From Lachnospiraceae bacterium (GTDB lineage Bacteria; Bacillota; Clostridia; Lachnospirales; Lachnospiraceae), in NCBI GenBank assembly GCA_910575005.1, contig CAJTCL010000014.1:1-64000 (forward strand): a stretch of 64,000 nt of DNA, in the 5' to 3' direction. Shown piece by piece: positions 8,579 to 37,456 of the stretch. The number at the start of each line of letters is the position of its first letter. The first letter of the stretch is position 1. The notes below the pieces were generated by a model, which was not told where the DNA came from, ran no database searches, and saw only the letters and a list, made by a program, of their open reading frames with translations. Made by a program: the position numbers and the translations under genes.

Positions 8579-9169
8579 TTAAATATAACGATTGGCAAGT
8601 TCACCAAGACCTGGATCATTTGTTCCCTGCCCAATGGCATTAAATTTCCATTCGCCATTGTGTCGGTACACTTCGCCAAAAATCATTGCTGTCATACCAG
8701 AATAATTCTCTGTCAAGTTGTATCTGCACATTTCATTATTGTTCCTGCCATCCACCAAACGGATAAAAGCATTCTCCACCATACCAAAATGCTGGTTTCT
8801 CTGTACTGCCTGATAGATATTGACTACCAGCACAATACGGTCATATTCTGCAGGGACATTGGCAAGATCCACCATAATCTGCTCGTCATCGCCCTCTCCT
8901 GCACCAGTAAGGTTATCTCCCATATGCTGGATTGTCCCTGATTTATGGCGCAGATTTCCAAAATAAATAATATCTTCCTTGTTGGTCAGCCTGCCATTGA
9001 TCAACAGCAAAGCTGAAGCATCACAGTCAATGGGCTTTGGTTTCTTTGCAAAAAAACCACCTTTAGCTTTTTGTACCTCATCCCATCCAAGTCCAATCAC
9101 TACTTTGGAAAGTCCTGCATTTTCTTTGGACAGACTTACCTTCTGCCCTTTCTGTAAACTGATTGACAT
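8579..9169 (-). CDS. TerD-family stress protein (TerZ-like paralogue)
   Basis: The 196-residue protein starts [12 protein letters not shown] and carries the TerD core [15 protein letters not shown], which binds Ca2+ in studied members. It keeps a DCDAS acidic motif but has an insertion (FFAKKPKP) before it, unlike its two neighbours, and lacks the FDLDAAAF form. It is the most divergent of the three paralogues. It is the third terD in a same-strand run and is followed by the Ca2+-ATPase. TerD proteins belong to tellurite/metal and phage stress systems; the exact job here is unknown. Confidence 0.9.
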   Translation of the reverse strand: MSISLQKGQKVSLSKENAGLSKVVIGLGWDEVQKAKGGFFAKKPKPIDCDASALLLINGRLTNKEDIIYFGNLRHKSGTIQHMGDNLTGAGEGDDEQIMVDLANVPAEYDRIVLVVNIYQAVQRNQHFGMVENAFIRLVDGRNNNEMCRYNLTENYSGMTAMIFGEVYRHNGEWKFNAIGQGTNDPGLGELANRYI

Positions 9170-9243
9170 ATTGTCCTCCTTCTATGCTCATAACGGAATA
9201 CACACTAGTTCTCTCTTACTGAAATCTAGTAAGATGCCAGGTT

Positions 9244-9825
9244 TTATCCCACCTCTACGCCATAATTGGCACACAGTGCAGCGAGACCGCCCTGATATCC
9301 GCAGCCAATGGCATTAAATTTCCACTCATTGCCATTCTTGTACAATTCACCAAACACAACGGCTGTCTCAATAGAGAAATCTTCCCCTAAATCATAGCGA
9401 ACTAACTCTTCGCCATTCTCTTCATTGTAAATGCGGATAAAGGCATTGCTCACCTGTCCAAAATTTTGCCGCCGCTGTTCCGCCTCATAGATCGTCACAG
9501 TAAATGCAATTTTGGTAATATCAGCAGGAACTTTGGACAAATCAACCTTGATCTGTTCATCATCTCCATCTCCCGCACCAGTGAGGTTATCTCCGATATG
9601 CTGTGCACATCCCGTTGGATGCATCAAATTCCCGTAAAACACAAAATCCTCTGACATAGACGCTTTTCCATTGTCTCCCAAAAGAAACGCTGCCGCGTCC
9701 AGATCAAAAGCTCCACCTGTATCAAATTGGTTTACATCCCATCCCAATCCTACGACAACCTTTGACAAACCCGGATTTCCTTTGGTCAGGCTTACCTTCT
9801 GCCCTTTTTGTAAATTTACCGGCAT
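9244..9825 (-). CDS. TerD-family stress protein
   Basis: The start ATG at 9825 (MPVNLQKG) follows GGAAGGAG by 7-8 nt; the open frame upstream of it has no support. The protein contains GLGWDVNQF, the acidic [11 protein letters not shown] motif and [15 protein letters not shown], the Ca2+-ligating features of TerD/TerE. It is very similar to the neighbour at 9935-10516, evidently a tandem duplication. It acts in the cytoplasm, probably as part of a membrane-associated Ter complex with TelA and YceG homologues of the same operon. Confidence 0.92.
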
Positions 9826-9934
9826 CTTCAATCTCCTTCCTATTTTAAACAATTCTCACTATTATAATACCAGTTAATATGCCCTCTATGATACGCTGCC
9901 ATACACATGACGCGCCAATTCCTGCATTCTGGTA

Positions 9935-10516
9935 TTAAGCCACTTCTATTCCATAATGCCCGCAAAGTGCTGCAAGGCCGCCCTGGAAACCGCTTCCAAT
10001 CGCATTAAATTTCCATTCTCCGTTATGACGATACAATTCGCCTACCACAACGGCTGTCTCAATGGAGAAATCCTCTCCCAAATCATAACGAATCAGCTCT
10101 GTTCCACTTGATTCATCTACAATACGGATAAACGCATTGCTTACCTGCCCAAAATTCTGGCGTCTGGTTTCCGCCTCATAGATCGTACAGGTAAATGCCA
10201 CCTTGGAGATATTTGCTGGAATCTTAGTGAGATCCACTTCAATCTGCTCATCATCTCCCTCACCCTCTCCAGTAAGGTTATCTCCCATATGTTTAATGGC
10301 ACCGCTGGTATGCTCCAGATTGCCATAGAAAATGAATTCCTTCTCGGTGGGACATTTCCCATTATCTCCAACCATAAATGCTGCCGCATCCAAGTCAAAA
10401 TCAGCACCAGAATCAAAGGCATTTACATCCCATCCCAGGCCTACCATAATATTTTTCAATCCTGGATTTCCTTTTGTGAGGTCAACTTTCTGTCCTTTTG
10501 ATAAGTTAATTGGCAT
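9935..10516 (-). CDS. TerD-family stress protein
   Basis: This 193-residue TerD protein has [23 protein letters not shown] and [15 protein letters not shown]. It is the paralogue nearest the operon's telA, 30 bp downstream of it. The start is supported by an AAGGAGG site. Identity with 9244-9825 is high along the whole length, including GEWKFNAIG and GGLAALC near the C-terminus. Inferred role: Ca2+-dependent stress sensing within the Ter operon. Confidence 0.93.
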
Positions 10517-10546
10517 ATTCCTTTCCTCCTTAATAATTGCTTATAA

Positions 10547-11695
10547 CTATTGTTTATTTGGCATATGATACATCCTGTTGAACTCTGTCTTAATATTTTC
10601 AAGCCTTGCCTGATCCTCCACACGCTTCTTTCTAGCATTTTCCTGAATCTGTTTTGTCTCATCAATACCATTTACAATTGTTCTCCAGGTTGTTTCCAGT
10701 GTCTCTATCTTAATGGAGCTTCCTGATGCCAGTCTTGCCGTCATCTTAGACTGCTCCGCAGTATTTCTCGCATTCTTAATTAACATTTCATTGGTCTTTT
10801 CATCCAATGCTGACATTGCCTCCGCCTGGATGCGCTGACGCTTGAGCATAATCGCCTGTGCCAAGGCCTGTTTAAACACTGGCAATGTGACAATAAATGC
10901 TGAATTAATCTTGCGCACCAGATTCATGTTGCTAAATTCCATTGTCTTAATCATTGGAATAGACTGCATTGCCACATTTTCTGCAGTTCGAAGATCCTGC
11001 GTGCGCTGCTCTAACATCATCAATGCCTGCTGCAAGCTTTGAATCTCAAACTGAATGGAATTATCTCCAGTGGCATCCATATCTGCCTGGCGCTGTGCGA
11101 TATAATCTTCAATTTCCTTACATCCCTGCTCGCCGGCAAGAATATATTTTACTAATTCATGGTAATAATTGACATTGGCCTCAAACATTTGGTTTAATCT
11201 GCGGTTGGACTGTTTAATCTCTGATTCATACTGCTTTAACTGCACATAGATCTTGTCAACCTCCTCACCCATCGTATGATATTTTGCCAAAATCTTATCT
11301 AACTGCTTTCTCAGATTGCCAAACAGTTTCCCAAACAACCCTGGATTATCCTTGATTTCCTCAATATCAAACTTGGACATAATCTTTGCCAGTGTATTCA
11401 GCATAGCGCTGGAATCGTCCAACTGAGACATATTCATGCTGTTTAAGACCACATCTGAGGCTTTGGATATCTCCTCTGCTGCCTCTGCCCCAAAAGAAAC
11501 AATTGTTTCCAAATCATTGACTGCAATTGTACTGGTCAAGGCATCCACCTCTGGAGAATTGACCCATTTCTGGTTTAATTGCTCTCTGTCTGCAACAATA
11601 TCATACTGTTCTACCACTTCAATTTCGTTTTTTGTGTCCGGCGCTGTGGCCATCTGCTGTGTTGTAGTTTTACTAAAATCCAATGCCATACTCAT
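10547..11695 (-). CDS. TelA/KlaA-family toxic anion resistance protein
   Basis: The 382-residue, largely helical protein matches the TelA family in length and pattern: helical N-terminus, the GLFGKLFGNLRKQLDKI segment, a long coiled coil (about 130-260), and the LPVFKQALAQAIMLKRQ and ETLETTWRTIVNGI blocks near the C-terminus. Its ATG overlaps the stop of the yceG homologue by 4 bp (ATGA), so the two are translationally coupled. In Firmicutes this pair corresponds to B. subtilis yceH-yceG, linked to Ter-type stress resistance. The biochemical function is not established. Confidence 0.9.
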   Translation of the reverse strand: MSMALDFSKTTTQQMATAPDTKNEIEVVEQYDIVADREQLNQKWVNSPEVDALTSTIAVNDLETIVSFGAEAAEEISKASDVVLNSMNMSQLDDSSAMLNTLAKIMSKFDIEEIKDNPGLFGKLFGNLRKQLDKILAKYHTMGEEVDKIYVQLKQYESEIKQSNRRLNQMFEANVNYYHELVKYILAGEQGCKEIEDYIAQRQADMDATGDNSIQFEIQSLQQALMMLEQRTQDLRTAENVAMQSIPMIKTMEFSNMNLVRKINSAFIVTLPVFKQALAQAIMLKRQRIQAEAMSALDEKTNEMLIKNARNTAEQSKMTARLASGSSIKIETLETTWRTIVNGIDETKQIQENARKKRVEDQARLENIKTEFNRMYHMPNKQ

Positions 11696-13983: not shown

Positions 13984-14568
13984 TCAATAGTTGTTCCATT
14001 TATTTTTATTTAAGGCATAACCCAATCCGGCTCCCACAAGGCCTCCAAGAATATGTGTCAGATTAGAGACATTGTTATTGACAAATATTCCCTCATAAAC
14101 CTGCTGCCCGATATAGAGCACTGCCACCAGAATAAAAGTCAGCGGAATACTGCCTTCCTTCATACTAGTAAAAGAGGACAAGAGAATCAAAGCAAACACC
14201 ACGCCGCTAGCGCCCAACAGACGCACATGGGGAAACAATGCAAAATTTACAATCCCTGTCACCAATGCTGTGGCAAGAATTACAAACAGCATATTGGAAG
14301 AGCCATATTTCTCCTCCAACAATGGTCCTACTACTAAAATCAGCATAATATTGCCTAGAAAATGCTCCCATCCTGCATGACCAAAAATATGTCCTATAAA
14401 CCGAATATATGTCAAGGGATTCAATAAGGACGATCGATAAACGCTAAAAAACATAACATCTGTCCTGCCCCTTGTCATCGTTCCCAATATCAATGCTGCC
14501 AAGCAAATCAGAGCAAAGCCCAGAATCACCGGCGAATTAAAAGAAACTTTAAATTTCTGTTCCCTCAT
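13984..14568 (-). CDS. Rhomboid-family intramembrane serine protease
   Basis: The start at 14568 follows GGAGG by 6 nt. The 194-residue product has six or so membrane helices, the GHAGWEHFLGN motif in helix 2, the catalytic Ser in LLGASGVVF and the catalytic His in LTHILGG. These are the Ser-His dyad and oxyanion residues of rhomboid proteases. It ends 12 bp before yceG in the Ter operon. Together with the upstream trypsin-like gene it gives this operon two serine proteases, which suggests regulated proteolysis at the membrane. Substrates are unknown. Confidence 0.9.
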   Translation of the reverse strand: MREQKFKVSFNSPVILGFALICLAALILGTMTRGRTDVMFFSVYRSSLLNPLTYIRFIGHIFGHAGWEHFLGNIMLILVVGPLLEEKYGSSNMLFVILATALVTGIVNFALFPHVRLLGASGVVFALILLSSFTSMKEGSIPLTFILVAVLYIGQQVYEGIFVNNNVSNLTHILGGLVGAGLGYALNKNKWNNY

Positions 14569-14636
14569 TCTACACCTCCAACTCTTCCCTTCTGCAATTA
14601 TAACGCATTTCCAAAATTTTGTACATGAAAATTTGT

Positions 14637-14800
14637 TTTGAGTTTCCTCATTATGTAATTCACTACACCAGAAGGTTTTCATCATAAAATGATGGAAACA
14701 CTTTGCACATAAAAGCGCTAGGAAAAGCTAGCTTTCCAGACGCTTTTTGTGCAAGATGTCTATACTGCCAAAGGCAGCAGAGCTTCTAGTACTAAAACAT
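14637..14800. mobile_element. MITE-like element, copy 2 (right end degenerate)
   Basis: It starts TTTGAGTTTCCTCATT and has the same three internal hairpins as copy 1, including GAAAGCTAGCTTTCC flanked by TTGCACA/TGTGCAA. The right terminal repeat is missing: the sequence runs into the 3' end of the protease gene 8 bp later. It separates two genes of the Ter operon, so it is probably transcribed and folded in the mRNA. Confidence 0.75.
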
Positions 14801-16523: not shown

Positions 16524-16753
16524 TTAGATACGCAAATACCATTTGCTCAGCCAATTGGGGCATGAAACTCTCTGGCCATCACAATACTGTGTAAGAATTG
16601 GCTGACGCACATTAGGCCTGGAAAGGAAATTGGAGAACATCTCATCCACTACTCTGGAAATGCTGCTGAAATAATTTCTTCCATAGACCCATTTATGGTC
16701 ATATGCTGTGGAAGATGTGATTGTAAAATCATAGCCTTTGTTTCGGTACCACT
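16524..16753 (-). CDS. Middle segment of an interrupted SleC-like spore cortex-lytic gene
   Basis: From the TGG codon at 16751 this frame reads W-YRNKGYDFTITSSTAYDHKW and on to CPNWLSKW. It continues, without loss of a residue, the segment that stops at 25601 (...LNRVYTEW). The same run is found in SleC-type SpoIID-related cortex enzymes. The apparent ATG at 16763 lies in the inserted element and is not a real start. After LSKW the family continues with GSK, but here YLRI and a stop follow, so the segment is cut a second time at about 16538. The frame is intact throughout, which argues against simple decay. The remaining C-terminal piece is not in the window. Confidence 0.85.
16527..16545. 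other. Putative attachment junction of a second element in the sleC-like gene
   Basis: The plus strand reads AGATACG-CAAA-TACCA here. The proven-looking junction at 25592-25608 reads AGATACG-AAGT-TACCA. Both lie right where a TGG (Trp) codon of the same gene meets foreign sequence. This suggests a second insertion by a related recombinase, with its other end left of the window. Confidence 0.55.
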
Positions 16754-18507
16754 TCGTAACCATTGATTCGGGATTTGGCTAGACTTTCATCCTGACTAAC
16801 GCTCAAACGAATCACTACTCTCTCCTTGGTGACGTCGATACGTTCCGTTAATTTATTTATCAGCACCCGTTTTGTAGAGATATCCGCAGACAAAAATATC
16901 TCACGCCATGTAGGTATTTTTCTTATATTCTGTGAAATTACCACATCGCTATTATCATGTACTCCAGATACTAATTTCTGCCATCCCTTTGCTCTATCAA
17001 AACAGTCCTGTAACATAATTTCTTTTTCATACAACAATGCCAGTTGTTTTTGCTCTTTTTCTTTTTGTGTATGGATGTTATGGACCAAATCTTCTAGGGT
17101 AAGGGCATATGCTCCAGTGATAGCTTCTGGTATTTTCTCTTCCATCACACAAATACCTGATCTGATTTTTTCAAGTTCTCTTTGTACTTTCTCTAACTCC
17201 TGTTCCTTTTTTTGTATTTCCTGCTTGTGATATTCTAAAATCAGTTCTATAACGTTATCATTTTTCTGTAGTTTGCTGATATATTCAGCTAATATCTCAT
17301 AAATAATCGGCTCTATCTCATCTGCCCGAAACTGCTTTGTCTTATTATGTGGAACCCCCTGCGCTGCATTTTGGCATTTATAAATCGTGGTCTTGCTGGT
17401 TTTTCGTTCTTTCGTATCTTTGATTGTCCAATAATTATATTTACTGCCGTTTACCATCTTGCTGCCGCAATAACCACAGTACAAAACATCTGCCAAAGAC
17501 AACATGCCGTTATTTCTCTTCATGACTGTGAAATCTTGATTTTTCTGTGATTTTGTGTATTGATGGTTGCGTCTCTCCCGTTTCTTCTGTACCTCTTTCC
17601 AAGTATTTTCCTCAATAATTATAATATCTGGATTTGCTTCTCTGGATAATACCCATTCCTCACTGTTTAGACTGCGATGCCTGCCGTTTAGACTTTCCCT
17701 GCGGTTGTAGGCCGTATAGCCTGCATAAATTGGATTTGTCAAAATACTGGTAATCGTTCCGCTTTTCCAGACATCATTGGGCGCCAGTTCTCTGTATCTA
17801 TCATCCTGATTCAATGTTTTTGCAATTTTAACAGAACCATATTCTTTCTCTAAGGATAATTGATAGATATATTTTACTGCCTCTGCCTGTTCTTTCTGTA
17901 TTACTAAATGCTTTAATGCCCGACCATGCTTGCTGATCTCACCTGAATGTTCCAACAGATAACCATAAGGCGCTTTGCCTCCCATAAATCTTCCCGCCTG
18001 CACTAACTTTTGGGCAGTATCTTTGACTCTCATTCCTGTATCTGCACTGCTTTTTTGTGCATTTCCATATCTTAGCGCCAGCATCATCTGCCCCATAATG
18101 TCATTGTCCTCTGGAGAAATACAGCCATCTTTTACTGTATAGATATCCACGCCAAGACTTTTTAAGGACATGATATACCCGCCGATTTCCCACATTCTGC
18201 GGCCAATTCGGTCATCCTTATATACAACTAAAATCTCATATTCATGATTCTTGGCATCCCGATAAGCTTCCTGCAAAATCTCTCTGTTTGCAACAGAATT
18301 TTTATAGCCGCTGTTACTTCCCTCAAAATATTCCTTTTCATCTAATATCCATTGGGAATGCCTTTGTATATAATCTAAGACAAGCTGTCTTTGCACATTC
18401 AAATCCCCATCCGATTCTAACTGCTGATCAGAGCTGACGCGCAGTAACATTCTCACTCGTTTCTTCTCTGTTTCTACACTCGTAAATAATTCTTTTCTCA
18501 CATTCAT
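16729..18507 (-). CDS. Large serine recombinase of the sleC-interrupting element
   Basis: The 592-residue protein has an N-terminal resolvase domain with catalytic Ser25 (LRVSSDQQ) and the DDRIGRR helix. A recombinase domain (GGKAPYGY...) follows, then a zinc ribbon starting CGYCGSKM whose last ligand appears to be His (VPHNK). A coiled coil (about 430-470) and C-terminal domain complete it. This is the SpoIVCA/SprA/TnpX class that makes unidirectional recombination at short cores. Its 3' end runs through the att core: the last codons lie in sleC sequence, so excision would change its tail. It lies at the element boundary in the same orientation as the interrupted gene. Confidence 0.93.
   Translation of the reverse strand: MNVRKELFTSVETEKKRVRMLLRVSSDQQLESDGDLNVQRQLVLDYIQRHSQWILDEKEYFEGSNSGYKNSVANREILQEAYRDAKNHEYEILVVYKDDRIGRRMWEIGGYIMSLKSLGVDIYTVKDGCISPEDNDIMGQMMLALRYGNAQKSSADTGMRVKDTAQKLVQAGRFMGGKAPYGYLLEHSGEISKHGRALKHLVIQKEQAEAVKYIYQLSLEKEYGSVKIAKTLNQDDRYRELAPNDVWKSGTITSILTNPIYAGYTAYNRRESLNGRHRSLNSEEWVLSREANPDIIIIEENTWKEVQKKRERRNHQYTKSQKNQDFTVMKRNNGMLSLADVLYCGYCGSKMVNGSKYNYWTIKDTKERKTSKTTIYKCQNAAQGVPHNKTKQFRADEIEPIIYEILAEYISKLQKNDNVIELILEYHKQEIQKKEQELEKVQRELEKIRSGICVMEEKIPEAITGAYALTLEDLVHNIHTQKEKEQKQLALLYEKEIMLQDCFDRAKGWQKLVSGVHDNSDVVISQNIRKIPTWREIFLSADISTKRVLINKLTERIDVTKERVVIRLSVSQDESLAKSRINGYEVVPKQRL
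16747..16753. other. att core at the recombinase-side end of the sleC-interrupting element
   Basis: The 7-bp core TACCACT is repeated in the same orientation at 25602-25608, 8855 bp away. Outside (left) lies the sleC middle segment; inside (right) lies the recombinase gene. Direct repetition predicts excision as a circle. Confidence 0.85.
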
Positions 18508-18580
18508 AATATGATGTTTCCTTTTTACGGAATCGTTACGACAAATTTTAGAGATGAAAATTTAAAAAAAACGTTGATTG

Positions 18581-18754
18581 TTAATCACTGGAGTAATAAA
18601 AGTTCTTTGTTAATTGCTCTTGAAGAATATGAAAGAGCATTTCTTTCACTTCTCTTTTTATTTTTTCGTCATTCCCCGATTCTGTTGGAAATTCCAGTAC
18701 TACCTGCATACCATTCTGTTCCAACTCTAATCGTTGATATTCTTCTTGTTTCAT
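18581..18754 (-). CDS. 57-residue protein upstream of the recombinase; candidate directionality factor
   Basis: A small gene with a good site (GGGAAGG, 4 nt before ATG at 18754) encodes MKQEEYQRLELEQNG... ending in FYYSSD. It has a short beta-rich N-terminal half (MQVVLEFPTES) and a charged helix (DEKIKREVKEMLFHILQEQL). It ends 74 bp before the recombinase start, same strand, so both are likely co-transcribed. A SigmaA-like TTGGCT-16-TATAAT lies upstream at about 18830-18857. SprB, the excision factor of the SP-beta recombinase SprA, has a similar size (58 residues); no sequence match to it is claimed. The function is an inference from size and position. Confidence 0.6.
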   Translation of the reverse strand: MKQEEYQRLELEQNGMQVVLEFPTESGNDEKIKREVKEMLFHILQEQLTKNFYYSSD

Positions 18755-18938
18755 GAAACCTTCCCTGCTGCATTTGCTTATTCTATTATTATTTTAAAAT
18801 AGCTTGTTACATGCTGGGAAGTTTCCATATAATATTATATTCTTACTTGTCCGGCAGCCAACCATCATCTAGACAGCACAAATAATTTCAGCTATTATCA
18901 TATTTCATTTTTATACTTTTACATACTGCCATAACTTT

Positions 18939-19460
18939 TTATAATTGTATTTCAATCTCTTCCACAGCTTCTCTGAATACAGAATAGAATTGCTGATTTC
19001 CAGATAAACTGTGCCTTCCTGAAATCTTCCACAACTTAGCAGCCGCTACCATTTGCTCCGTGTAGACCGAAGATAAAACTTCATCTTCCATGCCCAAAAT
19101 CATGTAAACTGGCTGGGGATTACTGGCATATTGAGCCATTAAACTGACAAGCTGATCTGTAAATGCATATTCTTCCACCAGAGACGAAATATATCTGTCT
19201 GGCGGAATACATGGGTTCACAAGTATGCACGGAAGACTGCACATATTACTTAAAATATATGCAAAAAATCCGCCAAATGAACTCCCCACAATATAATCAA
19301 TCTTCTTATACTTCTGTAAATCCTTTAAAATCTGCTCTGGTGAAGTCACTGCATAGTCAATTTGCGGTGATATCAGAGAATCTTCTGCATACAGTTCCAA
19401 CAATAATTTATAGTTTGTATTATGTGCACTTCCATTTAGTCCATGTAAATTTAGAATCAT
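18939..19460 (-). CDS. YqiA/UPF0227-like alpha/beta-hydrolase esterase
   Basis: The ATG at 19460 is chosen because AGGAG lies 8 nt before it. The 173-residue protein begins MILNLHGLNGS (oxyanion strand) and has the nucleophile elbow GSSFGGFF, an acidic residue in GMEDEVL and the His in GRHSLSG. These give the order Ser-Asp-His of the YqiA-type small esterases. It is cytoplasmic and probably acts on acyl esters; the substrate is unknown. It is carried inside the 8.86-kb element that splits the sleC-like gene. Confidence 0.8.
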   Translation of the reverse strand: MILNLHGLNGSAHNTNYKLLLELYAEDSLISPQIDYAVTSPEQILKDLQKYKKIDYIVGSSFGGFFAYILSNMCSLPCILVNPCIPPDRYISSLVEEYAFTDQLVSLMAQYASNPQPVYMILGMEDEVLSSVYTEQMVAAAKLWKISGRHSLSGNQQFYSVFREAVEEIEIQL

Positions 19461-19524
19461 GATTTCCACTCCTATATCTCATATTTTTCTGGCTTTTTAT
19501 TATAACATATTTTGAGGAAACTTC

Positions 19525-19553
19525 TTGAGTAACTTTTTTTTGTATGCTATATT
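19525..19553 (+). promoter_or_regulatory. SigmaA-type promoter of rarA
   Basis: TTGAGT, 17 bp, TATATT. Transcription would start near 19560, about 97 nt before the rarA ATG. Confidence 0.6.
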
Positions 19554-19656
19554 ATAAACATTATGAAATAGAGACTATGACAATCCAGTATCTTTTTAAA
19601 ATCAGACAATTTTTATTGTATTTTTAAAGCGTTTAAACAAATAGAGGTAACAGAGT

Positions 19657-20994
19657 ATGGAACAGCTAAGCCTATTTGACAATCGAGAGACAACGGCGCC
19701 TCTCGCAAGCCGCCTGCGGCCAGACAGCCTGGAAAACTATGTTGGGCAGAAACATCTGATTGGGGAAGGGAAAATCCTACGGCGGCTGATTGAGAACGAC
19801 CAGATTTCTTCTATGATATTTTGGGGACCTCCTGGAGTGGGCAAAACTACATTGGCAAGAATTATTGCTGAAAAAACCAGGTCAGAATTTGTGGAGTACA
19901 GTGCCGTCAACAGCACCATCAAAGAGATTAAGGAAGTCATGACGCGGGCAGAGGACAACCGTCGCATGGGGATCCGTACTCTGCTTTTTGCAGACGAGAT
20001 TCACCGTTTTAATAAAGCACAGCAAGATGCATTTCTGCCATTTGTGGAAAAGGGCAGCATTATCTTAATAGGAGCAACCACAGAGAATCCTTCTTTTGAG
20101 ATTAATTCCGCTTTACTCTCTCGCTGTAAAGTATTCATTCTAAAAGCTTTGCAAGAAGACGATTTAACAGAACTATTACACAATGCGTTAAAGAGTCCAA
20201 AAGGACTTGGAAATATGAAGATCTTTATCGAAGATGCCCATTTATCTGCCATTGCCCGTTTTGCCAATGGAGATGCAAGGACGGCATTGAACACTCTGGA
20301 GATGGCAGTATTTAACGGCAGGATGAATGAGAAAGCAATTCTGTGTGTGGATGAGGAAGTGCTCGCGCAATGCATGAACCGTCGATCGCTATTATATGAT
20401 AAGAATGGTGAGGAACATTACAATCTCATTTCTGCACTGCACAAATCTATGCGCAACAGTGATCCAGACGCTGCAGTATACTGGATGTGCCGTATGTTAG
20501 ACGGCGGCGAAGACCCTCTCTATATCGCCAGACGGCTAGTGCGTTTTGCCAGTGAAGATGTGGGGATGGCGGATCCTGAGGCCTTACAGATCACAGTGGC
20601 AGCCTATCAAGCTTGCCATTTTCTGGGGATGCCTGAATGCGATGTGCATCTGACACATGCGGTTGTCTATCTCTCTATGGCGCCAAAATCTAATGCACTC
20701 TATATGGCATGTGAGAACTGCAAACAAGACATCCGCAAATCTCCAGCAGAACCAGTGCCCTTGCAGATTTGTAATGCGCCAACTAATTTAATGAAAGAGC
20801 TTAACTATGGGAAAAATTATATTTATGCCCATGATACAGAAGAAAAATTGTCTAAAATGCAATGCCTTCCAGATTCTTTATCAGACCGAAGATATTATCA
20901 ACCTACCGAGCAAGGACAAGAGAAACAAGTCAAAAAACGACTGGAAGAAATCTTAGAATGGAAGTATGGTAATTCAGAATCAAAAATCCCATAA
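19657..20994 (+). CDS. rarA: Replication-associated recombination protein A (RarA/MgsA AAA+ ATPase)
   Basis: The 445-residue protein opens with LASRLRPDSLENYVGQKHL, then Walker A GPPGVGKTT, Walker B LLFADEIHRF and sensor/lid segments. It ends with the MgsA tetramerisation domain (DVGMADPEAL, APKSNALY). RarA acts at stalled replication forks and is normally a core chromosomal gene. Here it sits inside the recombinase-flanked element interrupting the sleC-like gene, which is odd for cargo. If the element is lost only in the mother cell during sporulation, the germ line keeps rarA. Confidence 0.95.
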   Translation: MEQLSLFDNRETTAPLASRLRPDSLENYVGQKHLIGEGKILRRLIENDQISSMIFWGPPGVGKTTLARIIAEKTRSEFVEYSAVNSTIKEIKEVMTRAEDNRRMGIRTLLFADEIHRFNKAQQDAFLPFVEKGSIILIGATTENPSFEINSALLSRCKVFILKALQEDDLTELLHNALKSPKGLGNMKIFIEDAHLSAIARFANGDARTALNTLEMAVFNGRMNEKAILCVDEEVLAQCMNRRSLLYDKNGEEHYNLISALHKSMRNSDPDAAVYWMCRMLDGGEDPLYIARRLVRFASEDVGMADPEALQITVAAYQACHFLGMPECDVHLTHAVVYLSMAPKSNALYMACENCKQDIRKSPAEPVPLQICNAPTNLMKELNYGKNYIYAHDTEEKLSKMQCLPDSLSDRRYYQPTEQGQEKQVKKRLEEILEWKYGNSESKIP

Positions 20995-21106
20995 CAAAGG
21001 ATATCAAACCCGCAGGAAAAATTATATAAAAATACTGCCCATAAATTTTAATCTATCTCCCTGGACATCCCAATATGGCCATACGGCCTTTTCTTCAATA
21101 TAATTT

Positions 21107-21143
21107 AAGGTACTGCAATTCCCAAAAGGAATCACAGTACCTT
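21107..21143. terminator. Hairpin between the convergent rarA and FliD-like genes
   Basis: AAGGTACTG-ca-ATTCC pairs with GGAAT-ca-CAGTACCTT. It sits between converging genes and may stop both, but no T-run follows on either strand. Confidence 0.45.
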
Positions 21144-21257
21144 ACATATTCTTAGACTAATTTCATATATTTTAAACAGTTGTGACTGTCTTAAGAGTCT
21201 TTATGTTTTCTCTCTCTATTTACCCGTAAGCGTTCTTTCTCGCTATCAAAACACAGA

Positions 21258-22427
21258 TTATATGAAATCAGCAAAACGGGAACTTCCCTGTACATTATAT
21301 GCACCTGCAGCGGTATAACCATTGGTAGCATTTGCTTTTGTAGTTGTATAATAATCTACCAGTGATGCATTGGTAGCAATAGAAGAACCATAATCTTTGA
21401 AGAATTTCTGTACTTCGGACATATCTGATTTCTTAAATTTGTCCTCATCAATCTTCAATTTGCCCTTCTCATCTACACTAATTCCAAACTGCTCAAGCAT
21501 ATCCTTATTTTGCGCTGTTTTTTCCCTGATTTGAGCCAAATTCGATATTACGCCAGAATTTGTGCTGGATTTAGCTGCATCAAACATATTGTTATAATTA
21601 GTCACAAAACTCTTAGCAGTGGAAAAGATCTTGTCAATATCATATGACTCATTTCCATCCTTATCCTTAATTTTTTGATATAACTTATCAGATGCAAGCG
21701 CTTCACCGTCTGCCTTCAAGGAAGCAGCACTGGTACCTGCGGTATTGTTCTTATCTTCACTTACACCACCAGCAATGCCAGCGAATTGAAGACGAGACAG
21801 AACGGTAGAACCATAGCTCATGTTATCGTCTGGTGAAAACAACTCCTGAACTTTAGAGAGCTCTACTGACTGAAGCTTACTCTCATTAAATTGAAGTGTT
21901 CCATTATCATTGATTGTAACACCAATTTCTGAAAGCTTATCCGCATTTGCAGCTGTGGCTTTCATCATATTTGCCACATATGCTGTTTTGTTTGTCAATG
22001 TGGACTGCTTTGATGCATTGACAACATCATTATACTGTGACACGAAATTCTTCATTGCAGAAGATACCTTTGCTGTTGCACTCTGGCCATTTTCTGTGTC
22101 TGTGAAAGTATTGCTGTTCTGTAATGTTGATACAGAACTCTTCAGAGTGGAAATTCCTGTCACCAGATTAGCATTCGCTTCTTTTACCTCCTCGGAAACC
22201 TTTGGATTTCTCCTCTCTTCGAGAATTCTTTCAAGAACATTACTTGTACTGCTTGATGAACCACTTGCTGTTGTACTCGAATTCTGCCCTCTGCCATAGT
22301 AAGCTTTCATAAGCCTGCCATAACTACCGCTTTTAATGCTGGCATAATCTGAGAGATAATTCATATTTCCCGATCCACTGCTGGATGAAAGACCTTGGAA
22401 AAAAGAAAAACCTTGATTCATACTCAT
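21258..22427 (-). CDS. FliD-like helical repeat protein of unknown role
   Basis: The ATG at 22427 follows AAGGAG by 8 nt. The 389-residue product has a Ser/Gly-rich N-terminus (about 10-70) and no signal peptide. Two related blocks follow: helices with NANKxxxLSEIG(V/I), then an acidic DNGTLQFNESKL or EKGKLKIDEDKF turn, then VQ(E/K)(L/F)F. This pattern resembles the FliD (flagellar hook-associated protein 2) C-terminal region. No flagellar genes lie nearby, and the protein lacks the rest of FliD. It may be an extracellular or adhesive repeat protein; I cannot assign a function. It is carried by the 8.86-kb element. Confidence 0.6.
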   Translation of the reverse strand: MSMNQGFSFFQGLSSSSGSGNMNYLSDYASIKSGSYGRLMKAYYGRGQNSSTTASGSSSSTSNVLERILEERRNPKVSEEVKEANANLVTGISTLKSSVSTLQNSNTFTDTENGQSATAKVSSAMKNFVSQYNDVVNASKQSTLTNKTAYVANMMKATAANADKLSEIGVTINDNGTLQFNESKLQSVELSKVQELFSPDDNMSYGSTVLSRLQFAGIAGGVSEDKNNTAGTSAASLKADGEALASDKLYQKIKDKDGNESYDIDKIFSTAKSFVTNYNNMFDAAKSSTNSGVISNLAQIREKTAQNKDMLEQFGISVDEKGKLKIDEDKFKKSDMSEVQKFFKDYGSSIATNASLVDYYTTTKANATNGYTAAGAYNVQGSSRFADFI

Positions 22428-22592
22428 TATCATCACTCCTTTGAATAAAAATATGGACATCCATATCCCAATGTTTGACATATTATATATCGGCGTAAAA
22501 CCTTATAGTTATTAGTTAATATAACACATAGATTTGAATATTACAAGATTCTGGAAAAAGGTCTTTGCTCTTGAGATTACATTTCTATGTAA

Positions 22593-23299
22593 TTACACCA
22601 ATTTCTCTAAACTTGTCAATGCATCTCTTTTCTTCTGAAAACGCATTTCGATTTTATCACCATTTGAATATTTTACAATGATCTCATATCCTCGAAACAT
22701 ATTTTTCTTAACAGCAATCTCTTTTTGATCAGAAGCAATATAATCACAGGCATCTTGAATATTACAAAATTCTTTTTCTGCCCCAAATAGGGAGATAATA
22801 TAAATACTCTCTATCGTTCTCTTCAATGCATTCTGTAAACATTGCAAAAAAATCTCCCATTGTTCTTTATGATTTGACATTAGATGATCGCCAATCAATT
22901 GTTGTTCTCTTTTAGACAACCTTTCAAATTGATCCACTTTTTCTTGTAACTCTTTTTCTGAAGTATCTTCTTCCCAGTGTATATAGATATTCTGTGAAGC
23001 AAAAGCCTCTTCAATTGCTTTCATAGAAAAATATAAAACCTTAAACCCTTCCGATTCCATCTGATTTAAAGAATTATTAGTAAATTTTCCTGCCAACACT
23101 ACTCCATAAAATGGATGAAACTCACTATAACGATAAACTAATGGCTTAATAGCGGCTGATATTTCTTGTGCTTTGTTTTTGGAATGTTTTGTATATCTAC
23201 GCCATGCAATTTCTATAAATGCTTTGGGTTTTCCTTTATACTATCCTCCAGTAAATTCCCAATAATTTGCCCAAAACGATGTGCAGGTGATTTTGCCAT
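22593..23299 (-). pseudogene. Broken type II restriction endonuclease gene next to its methyltransferase
   Basis: The start ATG at 23299 (AAGGGGG site 8 nt before) reads MAKSPAHRFGQIIGNLLED. After that the frame ends at a TAG within ten codons. In another frame the sequence resumes as GKPKAFIEIAWRRYTKHSKNK and stays open to 22593. The join is a deletion with frameshift that removed the expected middle of the enzyme. The surviving C-terminal part reads AGKFTNNSLNQMES...VLYF. The gene follows the methyltransferase by 5 bp, the standard R-M order. Restriction activity is almost certainly lost. Confidence 0.75.
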
Positions 23300-23304
23300 C
23301 TCAA

Positions 23305-24576
23305 TTACCCCCTTATCCATAATCGTCCTTCTTTCAGAGGAACTCTGTGCTTTCTGTTTTTCCATTTTATGTTTCGATCTCTTGTTTTTTCAAAATAAAA
23401 TTCTTTAAACCCTGCGGCAACCGCCAATCGTCCCAACCATTCATCCACAGGAACATACACTCCATATGGTGCAGAATCCCCGATTACAAAACAGACAGTA
23501 CCCCCTTCTTTACAAACATATCTTAAATGCTGCCATACTTTCGCTAAATCCAAGAAATATAAGGCAATCATAGTATGATAGTTTTTCTTACCGCCATGAT
23601 TTTCTTTTTCCAAATCTAACTTTGTACACACCTCTAAAATTTCATTATACATTGGTTGAAGAAGAGGATCTTGTAAATAATGAAAAGTATCTTTTCTCTG
23701 TTTTGAAACCATCTGCGTACAGGACCGCACCAATCCTGGCCTGATCTTACTCTGTAATTCTCCCCAGGAATTTATCTCTCCCAATACTGATAATTCCAAT
23801 CTTGTTGCATCTGCATAATCATAATTATTTGCGTAAGGCGGTGATGTTACTACAAGATCAATACTATTTCTTTCTATTGGTGATTGTTCTCTAGCATCAT
23901 GTTTTATCAATTTAGAGCCGGGCTTTGCTTCACTTTCCTGATATATTTTCAAATCTTCATACATCATAGCAACTTGCCTGGAAAATGCATCAAATGCAGT
24001 CAATACTTTTGCTTTTTTCTTATTAGGTAAGATATATTGCCATGTTGCAGTTCCAGCATGAGAAGAAGCTCGTAACATGGAAACAAAAGCCAACCACGAC
24101 AATTGATAACCTGGTGAGAAACTATCGCCATAAGAAATTAATGCTCTTTTTAAACGATCAATCTCTGCCAAATTTTTTTCATCATAACATTTTAAAACAA
24201 TATTAGGATATTCATCACTTTTCATATGATCATTTTGGGCAAGCATCAAAACCTGATTAGCAATTTCTAAAAATTCATCTGCATCTGTTGACCAAAGTAA
24301 TTTTCTCTCCGCAATTTTATATACAAGTGGATGTGACTCATAACCATAAGACTTAACACCTAGCTTATCACAGGATAACAATGTTGTACCCGAACCAGCA
24401 AAAGGATCCAGAACTTTTATTGTATTATTTTTCGACAACTGGGATTGATAAGTTAGAATAGTCTCTTCTACCCACTGGGCGGAGAAACCAGCCGAATATC
24501 GAAACCATCTGTGAATTGGCAACGACATATTATCTACAAATGTAGAACTGTTATCCGTTTGTAAAAACATATCCAT
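23305..24576 (-). CDS. DNA methyltransferase (amino-MTase, TSPPY type), probably orphan
   Basis: The 423-residue protein has S-adenosylmethionine motif I DPFAGSGTT (about residue 57) before the catalytic motif IV TSPPYANNYDYAD (about residue 245). This is the order of N4-cytosine or beta-class N6-adenine enzymes. It lies upstream of the broken restriction gene in the same unit and is intact, so it now acts as a solitary methyltransferase. The recognition sequence cannot be told from the protein. It is cargo of the element that splits the sleC-like gene. Confidence 0.88.
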   Translation of the reverse strand: MDMFLQTDNSSTFVDNMSLPIHRWFRYSAGFSAQWVEETILTYQSQLSKNNTIKVLDPFAGSGTTLLSCDKLGVKSYGYESHPLVYKIAERKLLWSTDADEFLEIANQVLMLAQNDHMKSDEYPNIVLKCYDEKNLAEIDRLKRALISYGDSFSPGYQLSWLAFVSMLRASSHAGTATWQYILPNKKKAKVLTAFDAFSRQVAMMYEDLKIYQESEAKPGSKLIKHDAREQSPIERNSIDLVVTSPPYANNYDYADATRLELSVLGEINSWGELQSKIRPGLVRSCTQMVSKQRKDTFHYLQDPLLQPMYNEILEVCTKLDLEKENHGGKKNYHTMIALYFLDLAKVWQHLRYVCKEGGTVCFVIGDSAPYGVYVPVDEWLGRLAVAAGFKEFYFEKTRDRNIKWKNRKHRVPLKEGRLWIRG

Positions 24577-24692
24577 ATAATAAATTTCCCTTCTATAAAC
24601 ACCTTAATTTGCTTAACGTTCTAACAATTTTTGAAAAGTTCGAGAGCTTTTATTATATTATACTTTACCCAACATTACAATTTGAAAATTTT

Positions 24693-24886
24693 TTTGAGAT
24701 CCCATATTTTGTAATTCATAGTCTCAAAAGGTTTCCATTGCTTTGCGATGGAAACACTTTGCACATAAAAACGCTATGGGAAGCTAGCTTTCCATAGCGT
24801 TTTTTGTGCAAGATGTCTATGCTGCCAAAGGCAGCAAGACCTTTTGGGACTAAAATCTCAGTTATTATAAAAATGGAACACTCAAA
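24693..24886. mobile_element. MITE-like element, copy 3
   Basis: The 194-bp element has TTTGAG...CTCAAA ends, the three internal hairpins and a closing stem AGTCtCAAAAGGT/ACCTTTTGGGACT. Where copy 1 has AGCG paired with CGCT, this copy has AACG paired with CGTT, a compensatory change. The AAAATTTT flanks could be a target duplication but are too AT-rich to be sure. It lies in the 431-bp gap between the methyltransferase and the membrane-protein gene. Confidence 0.85.
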
Positions 24887-25008
24887 AAAATTTTTAAATT
24901 TTTTATTTTACAATTATTATCCCATAACCTAATACTTATGTTATAATTCATGATAAAGTTTCTGCCATTACATGGCTTGTACAAATAATGGTTATTGGGG
25001 GATTATCT

Positions 25009-25554
25009 ATGAAAAAAATTGTTGCCATAGGAAATACTGTTTTTATCTATCTGATTGCTATATTGCCAGTGATGCTGATTGCCAGCGATAAAAGTGAAAT
25101 CATTACATGGATATGGAAACATCTCTTTCACAATTCTGTGTTTGTTCCACTGATTTTGTTGTTGTTATTCGGTGCAGTCATGTATATCTTAAATATCATT
25201 TTTATGATTCAGACCAGAAATGACTGTTTTCATGCCACAGATCTTGCCCGCACCAATATGATTGTAAAACTCATCCAAATACCAGCGTATATCTTTATCT
25301 TTATTATTGGAATACTTTGTATGGTTATGATATTCACAATCGGCATTTCTTTCGTGTTAATGCTGCTGGATGCTTTGAGTATTGGTCTTACTGGCTTATT
25401 TTCCATTGCAGCTTTTCAGAACTTAAATCGTGAGGGAATGATAACGAAAAAAGCCCAATTCATCTATTCCATAGCTTCTTTTCTATTTTGTGTTGACGTT
25501 ATTATTGCCATCATCGGATATCGCAAAAGCTTGTCTGTAACCACTTTATCCTGA
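25009..25554 (+). CDS. Uncharacterised four-helix membrane protein
   Basis: The ATG at 25009 follows GGGGGAT by 5 nt. The 181-residue protein has membrane segments at about 5-25, 44-67, 85-125 (one or two helices) and 145-168, separated by short charged loops. I recognise no family. It is the last gene inside the 8.86-kb element and converges on the interrupted sleC-like gene, ending 47 bp before the att core. Confidence 0.7.
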   Translation: MKKIVAIGNTVFIYLIAILPVMLIASDKSEIITWIWKHLFHNSVFVPLILLLLFGAVMYILNIIFMIQTRNDCFHATDLARTNMIVKLIQIPAYIFIFIIGILCMVMIFTIGISFVLMLLDALSIGLTGLFSIAAFQNLNREGMITKKAQFIYSIASFLFCVDVIIAIIGYRKSLSVTTLS

Positions 25555-25600
25555 TTTATGTTATTTCAAAGCCTCTAACCCAAAATCACAAGATACGAAG

Positions 25601-26284
25601 TTACCACTCTGTATATACACGATTGAGCGTAAATGACATAATGGCAAGGATATTAGCCCGAATCGTGCTGTCTGGCCAGGTGGCATAGATTTCACTGGAG
25701 GCAACATTTTTGATATAATCTTTGTATCTTACATAGTAATCACCTGCTGTGGAATCTCCTGGCGTCCCATCATGTACCACCACATATTCTGGCACCACAA
25801 CCCTACTTAAGACAATCTCTCCACTCTCATCTACAGGCTTAATCTCTGCCTCCGCAATCTTGGGCGGAAAATTTCCAAACAATGTATTCGCCGGAATCAC
25901 AATATTCTTCAGATCCTCTGACACCTCCAGAGGTTCCATCCGTACATTCTGCAAAGAAAGCTCACCGGAAAATACATCTACTCCCTCAATATTCACTGGA
26001 CGATAGCCCTCAGCCTCCACCTCCACCGTATACTCTGCATATGGCTGTGACTGTTCCGGCTCCATACTGTATTCCAATGGCGGCGCCGCCAATTCCACTG
26101 TCTCTGTCTGTCCTTCTGTATTGGTATTGAGCTGTTCTAAAGTATTCTGCGGATCTCCAGTATAAGAAATCGTAATTCTTGCATTTTCCACTGGAACCAT
26201 TCCTATGGTGGAAGTTACCTCCACTTTTAAGGTACCTTGATCTACATGATTCACCTGCGCTGCCCGTAATTTCTGATTCTGCAT
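25601..26284 (-). CDS. 5' segment of an interrupted SleC-like spore cortex-lytic gene
   Basis: The ATG at 26284 follows AGAGGTG closely. The 227 residues comprise an N-terminal carboxypeptidase-regulatory-like beta domain (LKVEVTS...ARITISY), a second linker region, and the beginning of the SleC core (EVVLS-type strand, then SSEIYATWPDSTIRANI and LNRVYTEW). SleC is a germination lytic transglycosylase stored in the spore and activated by Csp proteases. The stop codon TAA is created by the att junction: TGG-TA|A. The continuation lies at 16753-16524. The SigmaK-like promoter just upstream fits mother-cell expression. Confidence 0.85.
   Translation of the reverse strand: MQNQKLRAAQVNHVDQGTLKVEVTSTIGMVPVENARITISYTGDPQNTLEQLNTNTEGQTETVELAAPPLEYSMEPEQSQPYAEYTVEVEAEGYRPVNIEGVDVFSGELSLQNVRMEPLEVSEDLKNIVIPANTLFGNFPPKIAEAEIKPVDESGEIVLSRVVVPEYVVVHDGTPGDSTAGDYYVRYKDYIKNVASSEIYATWPDSTIRANILAIMSFTLNRVYTEW
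25602..25608. other. att core at the distal end of the sleC-interrupting element
   Basis: This is the second TACCACT core. Inside (left) the flank is CAAGATACGAAGT; outside (right) is CTGTATATACAC of the sleC 5' part. Joined to the inner flank of the other end (TCGTAACC), it makes TACGAAGT-TACC-ACTTCGTA, an 8-bp perfect dyad. Confidence 0.85.
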
Positions 26285-26313
26285 AAACACCTCTAAATTT
26301 CTACACTTATTGA

Positions 26314-26341
26314 TAGTTTATGCCGCATCATCTCAAAGGGT
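26314..26341 (-). promoter_or_regulatory. SigmaK-type promoter of the sleC-like gene
   Basis: In the minus direction AC, 17 bp, CATAAACTA matches the SigmaK consensus AC-N16/17-CATAnnnTA. The predicted transcription start lies about 20 nt before the start codon at 26284. Confidence 0.55.
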
Positions 26342-37108: not shown

Positions 37109-37456
37109 GGTGGATTATGGACAATAGATATAGTAGTCATAACAGACGTAAATACAGTTTCCGACAAGATACGGGAAAAAGGCTTTATCTATAACGGCAC
37201 ACCAGGCAGAATCACAGCCTATCTTCACTCTTCCCAGGATAAGCTTGGAATACCTCGATTTTCTATACATAAGCTGAGGCATTATTTTGCTTCCAAAATG
37301 AGCGCTTTAAATGTCCCTGATGCGGACATTATAAAGATGGGCGGATGGGAAATAGATCATATTATGAAATCTGTGTACCGACACTCCACAATAGACAAAG
37401 AAGAAAATGCAAAAAGAGAGGCTTCCGAAAAACTACGGAATGCTATTTTTTCTTAA
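37109..37456 (+). pseudogene. C-terminal stump of a tyrosine recombinase (integrase)
   Basis: The open frame has no start codon of its own and begins at the left end of the tnpB element. It reads GIPRFSIHKLRHYFASKM (HxLR box), then GGWEIDH, then the catalytic Tyr in SVYRHST, and ends KLRNAIFS. The first catalytic Arg and the N-terminal domains are missing. It ends 145 bp before the 3' end of tRNA-Gly, the usual place for the integrase of an element inserted in a tRNA. It is the remnant of a lost prophage or integrative element. Confidence 0.85.

Follow-up and report, generated by a model that had tools for sequence, protein, structure and literature searches.

A sleC germination gene split at large serine recombinase sites in Lachnospiraceae, and its probable restoration by excision in the sporulating mother cell

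Can a germination gene that lies in pieces on the chromosome still be a working gene? The question is raised by a stretch of 64,000 nucleotides (the window) at the start of contig C14 of a Lachnospiraceae bacterium, in which sleC, the gene of a spore cortex-lytic enzyme, breaks off and resumes 8.86 kb away, across an element carrying a large serine recombinase (LSR). The genome (4.29 Mb, 88 contigs) is 99.45% complete, and its closest named relatives are gut Lachnospiraceae, e.g. Petralouisia muris, Eubacterium sp. 14-2 and Lachnospiraceae bacterium C77. The answer that we consider quite probable, from the sequences compared here, is that sleC is split by one or more LSR elements, that its pieces would be rejoined by a skin-like excision in the sporulating mother cell, and that full-length sleC would then be made.

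The interrupted gene and its attachment sites

The pieces of the gene, the recombinase and the junctions are the following.

25601..26290, minus strand: sleC fragment 1, 229 amino acids (aa), C-terminal RVYTEW followed by TAA, the stop codon coming from the element
16533..16748, minus strand: sleC fragment 2, 72 codons, YRNKGYDF...WLSKW
G000:C8:118130-118612, minus strand: sleC fragment 3, the last 123 codons, on contig C8 of the same genome, outside the window
16729..18507, minus strand: LSR1, large serine recombinase of 592 aa with Resolvase, Recombinase and Zn-ribbon domains
25580..25628, minus strand: attL of site 1, core TACCACT at 25602-25608, element half-site 25580-25603
16725..16772, minus strand: attR of site 1, core TACCACT at 16747-16753, element half-site 16749-16772
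16525..16560, minus strand: site-2 junction, inner sequence TTGGCTGAGCAAATGG, arm TTTGCGTATCTA at 16525-16536

The interrupted gene was identified as sleC because an intact relative matches the solved structure 9h68, 'Spore cortex-lytic enzyme pre-pro-form', over residues 14-423 (E 2.4e-128); the skin element proper has sigK as its target. Fragment 1 is 79-98% identical to the N part of the gene in 28 other genomes of the genus. The open frame of the continuation (16524-16763, minus strand) reads YRNKGYDF... and ends WLSKW-YLRI*. The two TACCACT cores are in direct orientation, 8,855 bp apart, and precise joining at the core restores the sleC frame. When the three pieces are joined by script, an open reading frame (ORF) of 423 aa results, compared with 424 aa in an intact relative, with 382/423 residues identical and one gap.

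A first-pass annotation of this DNA had described a SleC-like gene broken at 25601 and resumed at 16753, with TACCACT shared in direct orientation, an in-frame RVYTEW-YRNKGYDF joint and an LSR at one end of the element in the same orientation; fragments, coordinates and frame were all recovered in our analysis. Where it took the 16.5-kb piece for the continuation of the gene, the 72 codons fit, but the last 123 codons lie elsewhere and a second joining is needed. The element ends do combine into the dyad it reported, which reads TACGAAGT-GGTA-ACTTCGTA on the other strand; this 8-bp dyad is an inner repeat, found in only two of the 9 two-ended site-1 loci, the window and the locus (L060) of the sister species Lachnospiraceae bacterium C77.

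More general is a CCYGAAT-like motif, located 24 nt left of the G|T centre in 9/9 two-ended site-1 loci and scoring at least 5 of 7 in 8/9 of them. Its inverse, ATTCRGG, scores at least 5 at +18 to +24 in 17/21 split loci, versus 2.5% of random positions; the exceptions (L113, L116, L120, L134) score 4 or less. The attP of an LSR is about 50 bp long and carries ZD motifs in inverted orientation. In such sites a ZD motif occupies positions 16-24 (PMC3783163; this and the other papers are cited for the parts of their text that were available). The half-site motifs, at 18-24 nt, have this LSR attP geometry, which goes together with the three LSR domains of the recombinase, and GT is the likely crossover dinucleotide. 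The split at site 1 is beyond chance, since the Trp|Tyr junction recurs in 20/80 loci of named relatives and 14/29 genomes of the genus, with a junction-symmetric motif at fixed spacing. Direct att sites that restore the reading frame are evident in the site-1 cores, the three-piece join, the half-site motifs and the site-2 arms described below. The exact attP pattern, as expected for the excised circle, was not found in public virus contigs.

Recurrence of split sleC

Within the genus, the N part of sleC was found in 29/29 genomes and the C part in 27/29. The gene is split at the same codon in 14 genomes and continuous in 14 others, which supplies the unbroken copies in relatives that the first-pass annotation had proposed to look for; in the last, G022, a contig end interrupts it. 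Of 358 named relatives, the best 80 were analyzed: 20 are split at site 1, one (L095) is split only at site 2 and one (L111) lies at a contig end, while in L100 and L125 sleC passes site 1 but ends early.

A wider family sample consisted of 396 genomes, 263 of which gave a sleC match at E 1e-10 or better; 52 of them, picked mainly for weak best scores, were re-examined, and a split was counted only if both sides of the break were found. Split sleC is present in at least 37 of the 263 genomes, from 35 genera by genus labels: 14 are split at site 1 (the present genome included), 20 only at site 2, after about residue 300, two near residue 170 (G402 and G266, both parts on one contig) and one near residue 243 (G383, about 13 codons past site 1 and counted separately). 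All 20 site-2 breaks were inspected in sequence; of the 14 at site 1, those of G366, G184, G318 and G360 were assigned from search rows. The total of 37 is a lower bound, as it leaves uncounted the one-sided cases G061, G150, G089, G218 and G069 and the uncertain separate-contig cases G188, G109 and G140. Splits free of assembly gaps occur in two single-contig genomes, G294 (site 1) and G371 (site 2).

Neither the present genome nor any of the 21 named genomes in which sleC is split yielded an intact close copy of the gene; two of the 21 (G433, G435) hold a long SleC paralog of 40% identity.

Recombinases beside the junctions

LSR1-type genes, defined by E 1e-40 or better, are present in 12/29 genomes of the genus, namely in 12/14 with split and 0/14 with continuous sleC (Fisher p 6e-6, G022 excluded), and all 12 sit beside or between sleC pieces. 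The two split genomes in which LSR1 was not found (G010, G027) both end at contig edges. They recur, as L070 and L076, among the named genomes split at site 1, where LSR1 is found in 18/20. A different family, LSR2, adjoins the site-2 junction in 10/10 genomes fetched whole (one gene being only 285 aa long) and also in L092, L095, L208 and L230; at L208, where sleC is split twice, both LSR types are present. The two loci split near residue 170 (L187 = G402, L188 = G266) carry other, unrelated serine recombinases beside the break. Full support separates the site-1 from the site-2 recombinases in a tree built from 31 LSRs, and the junctions of each main split site are accompanied by an LSR family particular to that site.

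An LSR1-type integrase is also encoded on two IMG/VR contigs, 68 and 145 kb long, where phage genes lie next to it (a pre-neck appendage gene in one, minor tail and Dit genes in the other), and no sleC was found in the examined stretch of either; in L209, sleC fragment 2 lies between LSR1 and phage portal and tail genes. LSR1 therefore belongs to a phage-type integrase family, and the bacterial site-1 elements look like reduced descendants of phage-type integrations. An LSR1 alignment scan of public virus contigs matched 4 contigs, a scan with the single protein none. Among named phages, 257 records gave distant LSR matches, all below 60% identity, one of them covering at least 80% of the query.

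The third fragment and the segment between pieces 2 and 3

In the present genome the 16.5-kb piece is cut again after its 72 codons, and sleC is thus in three pieces. The sister species (G015) has the three pieces on one contig and in one orientation, at 103275-103961, 112731-112949 and 174466-174870. The 61.5 kb between pieces 2 and 3 have chromosomal gene content: of seven proteins tested, aspS, gatA, gatB and a pyruvate formate-lyase activating protein pass the NCBIfam cut-offs, an lspA-like protein falls slightly below its cut-off, and two proteins that are BioY- and TerD-like by eye gave no NCBIfam match at 1e-10. A reading by eye of nrdG/nrdD in this segment was wrong; the one tested is the activating protein. 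The idea that the segment is a mobile element was rejected, its contents being chromosomal. The corresponding stretch of the present genome is distributed over two contigs, C14 and C8. The flanks of 13 continuous and 4 split loci of the genus were compared with the sister region: the genes upstream of sleC match in most, and none of the genes of the 61.5 kb were seen. A cluster of proteins TerD-like by eye lies between sleC pieces 2 and 3 in the window as well (8579-11695); the sister copy is the one tested above.

In both sister species the ends at site 2 combine as TAGATACGCAAA-N24-TTTGCGTATCTA, in which the 12-bp arms are perfect and lie 13-24 nt from the centre. Beyond the arms, the next 60 nt of the two species match at only 17/60 positions on the right and 38/60 on the left; the arms, perfect beside diverged flanks, are therefore being kept. 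No LSR1- or LSR2-family gene and no tyrosine recombinase were found in the 61.5 kb of the sister; in this respect the site-2 segment of this lineage differs from the site-1 element, which encodes LSR1. A tyrosine recombinase origin of site 2, suspected from the dyad, was rejected on the LSR-type arm spacing, the presence of LSR2 at related junctions and the lack of such a gene in the segment.

A candidate enzyme is found elsewhere. Both sister genomes have a solitary LSR2 gene of 504 aa that adjoins smpB and rnr (on G000:C3 and G015:C18, respectively). Among 24 LSRs placed in a tree, its nearest neighbour is the site-2 LSR of L230 (support 96/88), followed by that of L095 (100/100). The site-2 arms point the same way: compared with the arm of the window, L230 matches at 11/12 positions, L095 and L180 at 8/12, and ten other loci at 2 to 7 (L208 was left out, its anchor being unspecific). 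Since tree and arm sequence indicate the same partner, we infer that the orphan LSR2 acts in trans on site 2.

Promoter pattern and the possibility of phase variation

One further feature precedes fragment 1.

26314..26341, minus strand: sigma-K-like promoter of sleC, AC-N17-CATAAACTA, by pattern match

The pattern AC-N16/17-CATANNNTA is sigma-K-like. It is found upstream of sleC in 21/24 loci of the genus (shuffled mean 0.04), in 44/81 of all loci and in 14/21 split loci. Together with the 9h68 match, it points to a mother-cell sporulation gene as the one interrupted. In C. difficile, sleC is among the listed sigma-K targets (PMC5025042). A conserved box upstream of LSR1 was considered as a promoter and rejected: by eye it is coding sequence of a longer form of the small ORF preceding LSR1 in most members, and no LSR1 promoter is therefore claimed.

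Excision might be reversible, or occasional in growing cells and independent of sporulation, so that, as in a phase-variable prophage, a subpopulation with intact sleC would form germinable spores. The membership of LSR1 in a phage integrase family would suit such a scheme, as would the fact that no mother-cell promoter was recognised on LSR1; for the yin element, moreover, intact yabG is reported at all time points (PMC10747680). We nevertheless hold it to be unlikely, since the element of the window is without phage structural genes, elements occur at the same codon in many species, and the site-2 segment spans aspS, gatA and gatB, genes that a growing cell should be unable to dispense with.

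Selection on the fragments

The two sister species, which share both splits, differ over the three sleC pieces by 67 synonymous (S) and 4 non-synonymous (N) changes: 4N/36S in fragment 1, 0N/5S in fragment 2 and 0N/26S in fragment 3, i.e. ratios of non-synonymous to synonymous rates (dN/dS) of 0.027, 0 and 0. By the same comparison, dN/dS is 0.015 for ilvH, 0.017 for smpB, 0.025 for the rarA-like gene, 0.026 for ilvE and 0.046 for enolase. Higher values are obtained for membrane protein 293 (0.091), the FliD-like protein (0.098), the small ORF (0.156), LSR1 (0.188), a trypsin-like protein (0.222), the orphan LSR2 (0.307; 16N, 14S) and the membrane protein of 188 aa (0.374); methylase (1.045), orf168 and rhomboid genes have too few changes. 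For the N part across the genus, the median is 0.051 in split-split pairs and 0.043 in unsplit pairs, calculated on pairs with dS below 1.5, i.e. 10/66 and 18/78 pairs, respectively.

The sleC pieces, being constrained like core genes, are not pseudogenes; they are under strong purifying selection and are not decaying, and the recombinases are less constrained than they are. The outcome that the first-pass annotation named as fatal to its proposal, an intact sleC elsewhere with this copy in decay, was looked for, and neither part of it was encountered. That the gene has been permanently inactivated by insertions, another cortex hydrolase serving germination, is accordingly very unlikely: splits are common, the recombinase of one locus (L104) looks damaged and SleC-like paralogs exist in a few genomes, but the scarcity of non-synonymous changes between the sisters, the similar medians of split and unsplit pairs and the conserved site-2 arms beside a diverged right flank all speak for maintenance. 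A split enzyme assembled from separately translated pieces, with no joining of DNA, would equally explain the purifying selection and is hardly credible, given that the sole promoter recognised precedes fragment 1 (fragments 2 and 3 were not searched for promoters), that the first start codon in fragment 3 of the sister is a TTG already within the conserved region, and that breakpoints fall at several places within the conserved core.

How sleC may be rebuilt

There is good support for functional sleC pieces with LSR sites as their boundaries, and their joining in the mother cell is what best accounts for the sequence data. The site-1 element, with LSR1, the small ORF and cargo but no phage structural genes, would descend from a phage-type integration at a conserved Trp-Tyr codon pair. 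In the present strain sleC is cut a second time, 72 codons downstream, at an LSR2-type site. In the mother cell, LSR1 would recombine attL with attR at the central GT, releasing the 8.86-kb element, the small ORF probably acting as directionality factor, and the second site would be joined by an LSR2-type recombinase, most likely the orphan encoded beside smpB. Full-length sleC would then be expressed from the sigma-K-like promoter and its product packed into the spore, whose chromosome would retain the split gene. The skin-like event proposed in the first-pass annotation is thus upheld by the available sequence tests as a putative mother-cell excision; it lacked the second joining.

A larger claim seems to us evenly poised between true and false: that a three-piece sleC is rebuilt by two serine recombinases, the second segment being a non-mobile stretch of chromosome, at least about 61 kb long, with housekeeping genes (aspS, gatA and gatB among others), which the smpB-adjacent LSR would excise as a programmed loss in the terminal mother cell, and that sleC is a recurrent target in Lachnospiraceae, for which several LSR families have been separately recruited to the sporulation programme.

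Several points weigh against rejoining in the mother cell. Excision itself is predicted from sequence, and precise restoration, which follows any conservative site-specific integration, is by itself no proof of function. LSR1 and the orphan LSR2 are less constrained than sleC, and no convincing shared mother-cell promoter was found upstream of either, only scattered -10-like matches. In the family sample, distant full-length SleC relatives occur also in G045 (45%) and G318 (40%), and pieces of one in G291. The LSR1 frame of L104 is broken (432+122 aa), by sequencing error or decay. In L084/G429 the C part is upstream of the N part, an order unexplained by simple element excision. Finally, a distant serine recombinase of neither the site-1 nor the site-2 family (574 aa, 26% identical; C8:142053-143216, in stretch L231, G000:C8:138000-148000) lies about 23 kb from fragment 3 and might play a part as well; the 61.5 kb of the sister lack it.

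Relation to known intervening elements

Intervening elements have been described in sigK, spsM, spoVFB, spoVR, gerE and yabG (PMC10747680, PMC4191935), and in C. tetani a prophage lies in sigK (PMC5553647). The closest known system is the gin element in gerE of Bacillus cereus ATCC10987 (PMC5595907), likewise free of phage genes, which interrupts a sporulation gene, has inverted-repeat att sites and encodes a serine recombinase (GirC) with a directionality factor (GirX), for which only a candidate is available here. It differs in having a regulator as target, a single site, three recombinase genes and a demonstrated excision, while that of sleC is deduced. In B. subtilis and C. difficile, sigK holds skin elements (PMC5025042) that also carry an LSR and restore a mother-cell gene, as is supposed here. 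The LSR of the C. difficile element directly precedes the 3' part of the split gene, an arrangement that sleC shares; the target is sigK, not sleC, and the directionality factor of C. difficile is under sigma-E/SpoIIID control, whereas the present one is a candidate. Like the sleC elements, yin of Clostridium botulinum (PMC10747680) is an LSR element of a clostridial spore former; the gene it interrupts, yabG, is under sigma-K control, and the C. difficile product of that gene processes pre-pro-SleC. Yin is prophage-like and in another gene, whereas sleC has several sites, in many genera, and three-piece genes. SP-beta in spsM (PMC4191935) shares a site-specific phage integration that is reversed in sporulation, restoring the gene, a reversal that is presumed for sleC; it is a large active prophage in a spore envelope gene.

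The kind of arrangement is therefore already known from skin, SP-beta, gin and yin; the target gene, its recurrence, the three-piece genes and the likely trans arrangement appear to be new. Split sleC is not among the genes with intervening elements described in the available parts of PMC10747680 and PMC4191935, and was not reported in titles and abstract openings of the literature on sleC, cortex lysis, germination and recombinases, a search mostly outside subscription papers and preprints. The main text of the LSR discovery paper (PMC10083194) does not mention sleC.

Such elements have so far been seen in a handful of sporulation genes; here a single germination gene is hit at several sites, by separate recombinase families, and this recurrence makes the question of why they settle in mother-cell genes testable by comparison. 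If the proposal holds, what is annotated in gut commensals as truncated sleC may be a working gene, and the germination of many gut spore formers would depend on DNA excision. Should the 61-kb chromosomal segment really be excised, it would be an extreme case of programmed DNA loss in bacteria.

Cargo of the site-1 element and minor observations

Besides LSR1, whose last codons lie in sleC since its 3' end overlaps the junction, the element contains the following genes.

18581..18754, minus strand: small ORF of 57 aa upstream of LSR1, conserved in site-1 elements, candidate directionality factor
18939..19469, minus strand: UPF0227 esterase-like protein (PF05728)
19657..20994, plus strand: RarA/MgsA-like AAA ATPase, by domain match, with a 47% identical paralog elsewhere in the genome
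21258..22481, minus strand: FliD_C domain protein (PF07195)
22593..23099, minus strand: 168-aa protein of unassigned family (orf168), ORF only
23305..24576, minus strand: N6/N4 DNA methylase-like protein (PF01555)
24988..25554, plus strand: membrane-type protein of 188 aa, no Pfam or PHROG match

LSR1 and the small ORF are the only real genes common to 11/11 site-1 elements compared, the other clusters being antisense or out-of-frame shadows of the LSR. The small ORF, which has no Pfam or PHROG match, is present in 4/4 further site-1 elements and was not seen in the three phage-type contigs L209-L211. In several elements it has a longer N-terminal part (window 18581-18860; L060, L069, L072), and in four an in-frame stop at the same codon (DKLF*N-like, by eye) leaves a short protein. 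Of the eight element proteins of the window scanned against PHROGs, three match (integrase, clamp loader and DNA methyltransferase) and none is a phage structural protein. An argument from core-gene cargo (rarA) was dropped, given the paralog elsewhere in the genome.

The rhomboid, orf168 and methylase genes (window 13984-14685 and 22593-24576) have a dS to the sister of 0 to 0.013, versus about 0.09-0.37 for their neighbours; this near-identity suggests recent patchwise gene exchange.

Among other loci, Eubacterium plexicaudatum ASF492 (L104, 11660-13584) has three sleC pieces with the second break slightly shifted (YLGD|), and L212/L213 cover the further break of G383, near residue 243. In L084/G429 (G429:C3, 57043-57636 and 100154-100855; L083-L085), a single contig of a metagenome-assembled genome (MAG), the C part and LSR1 lie on the strand of the N part, 43 kb upstream of it; the N part is soon followed by housekeeping-type genes, and recombination would restore sleC on a circle of 43 kb. 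An extra 3' sleC fragment starting from the site-2 boundary (G196:C207:7071-7451) accompanies a continuous sleC elsewhere in the same genome and is possibly element-borne. Outside the element, the window also holds a phage-type tyrosine integrase remnant, a 115-aa open frame at 37217-37390.

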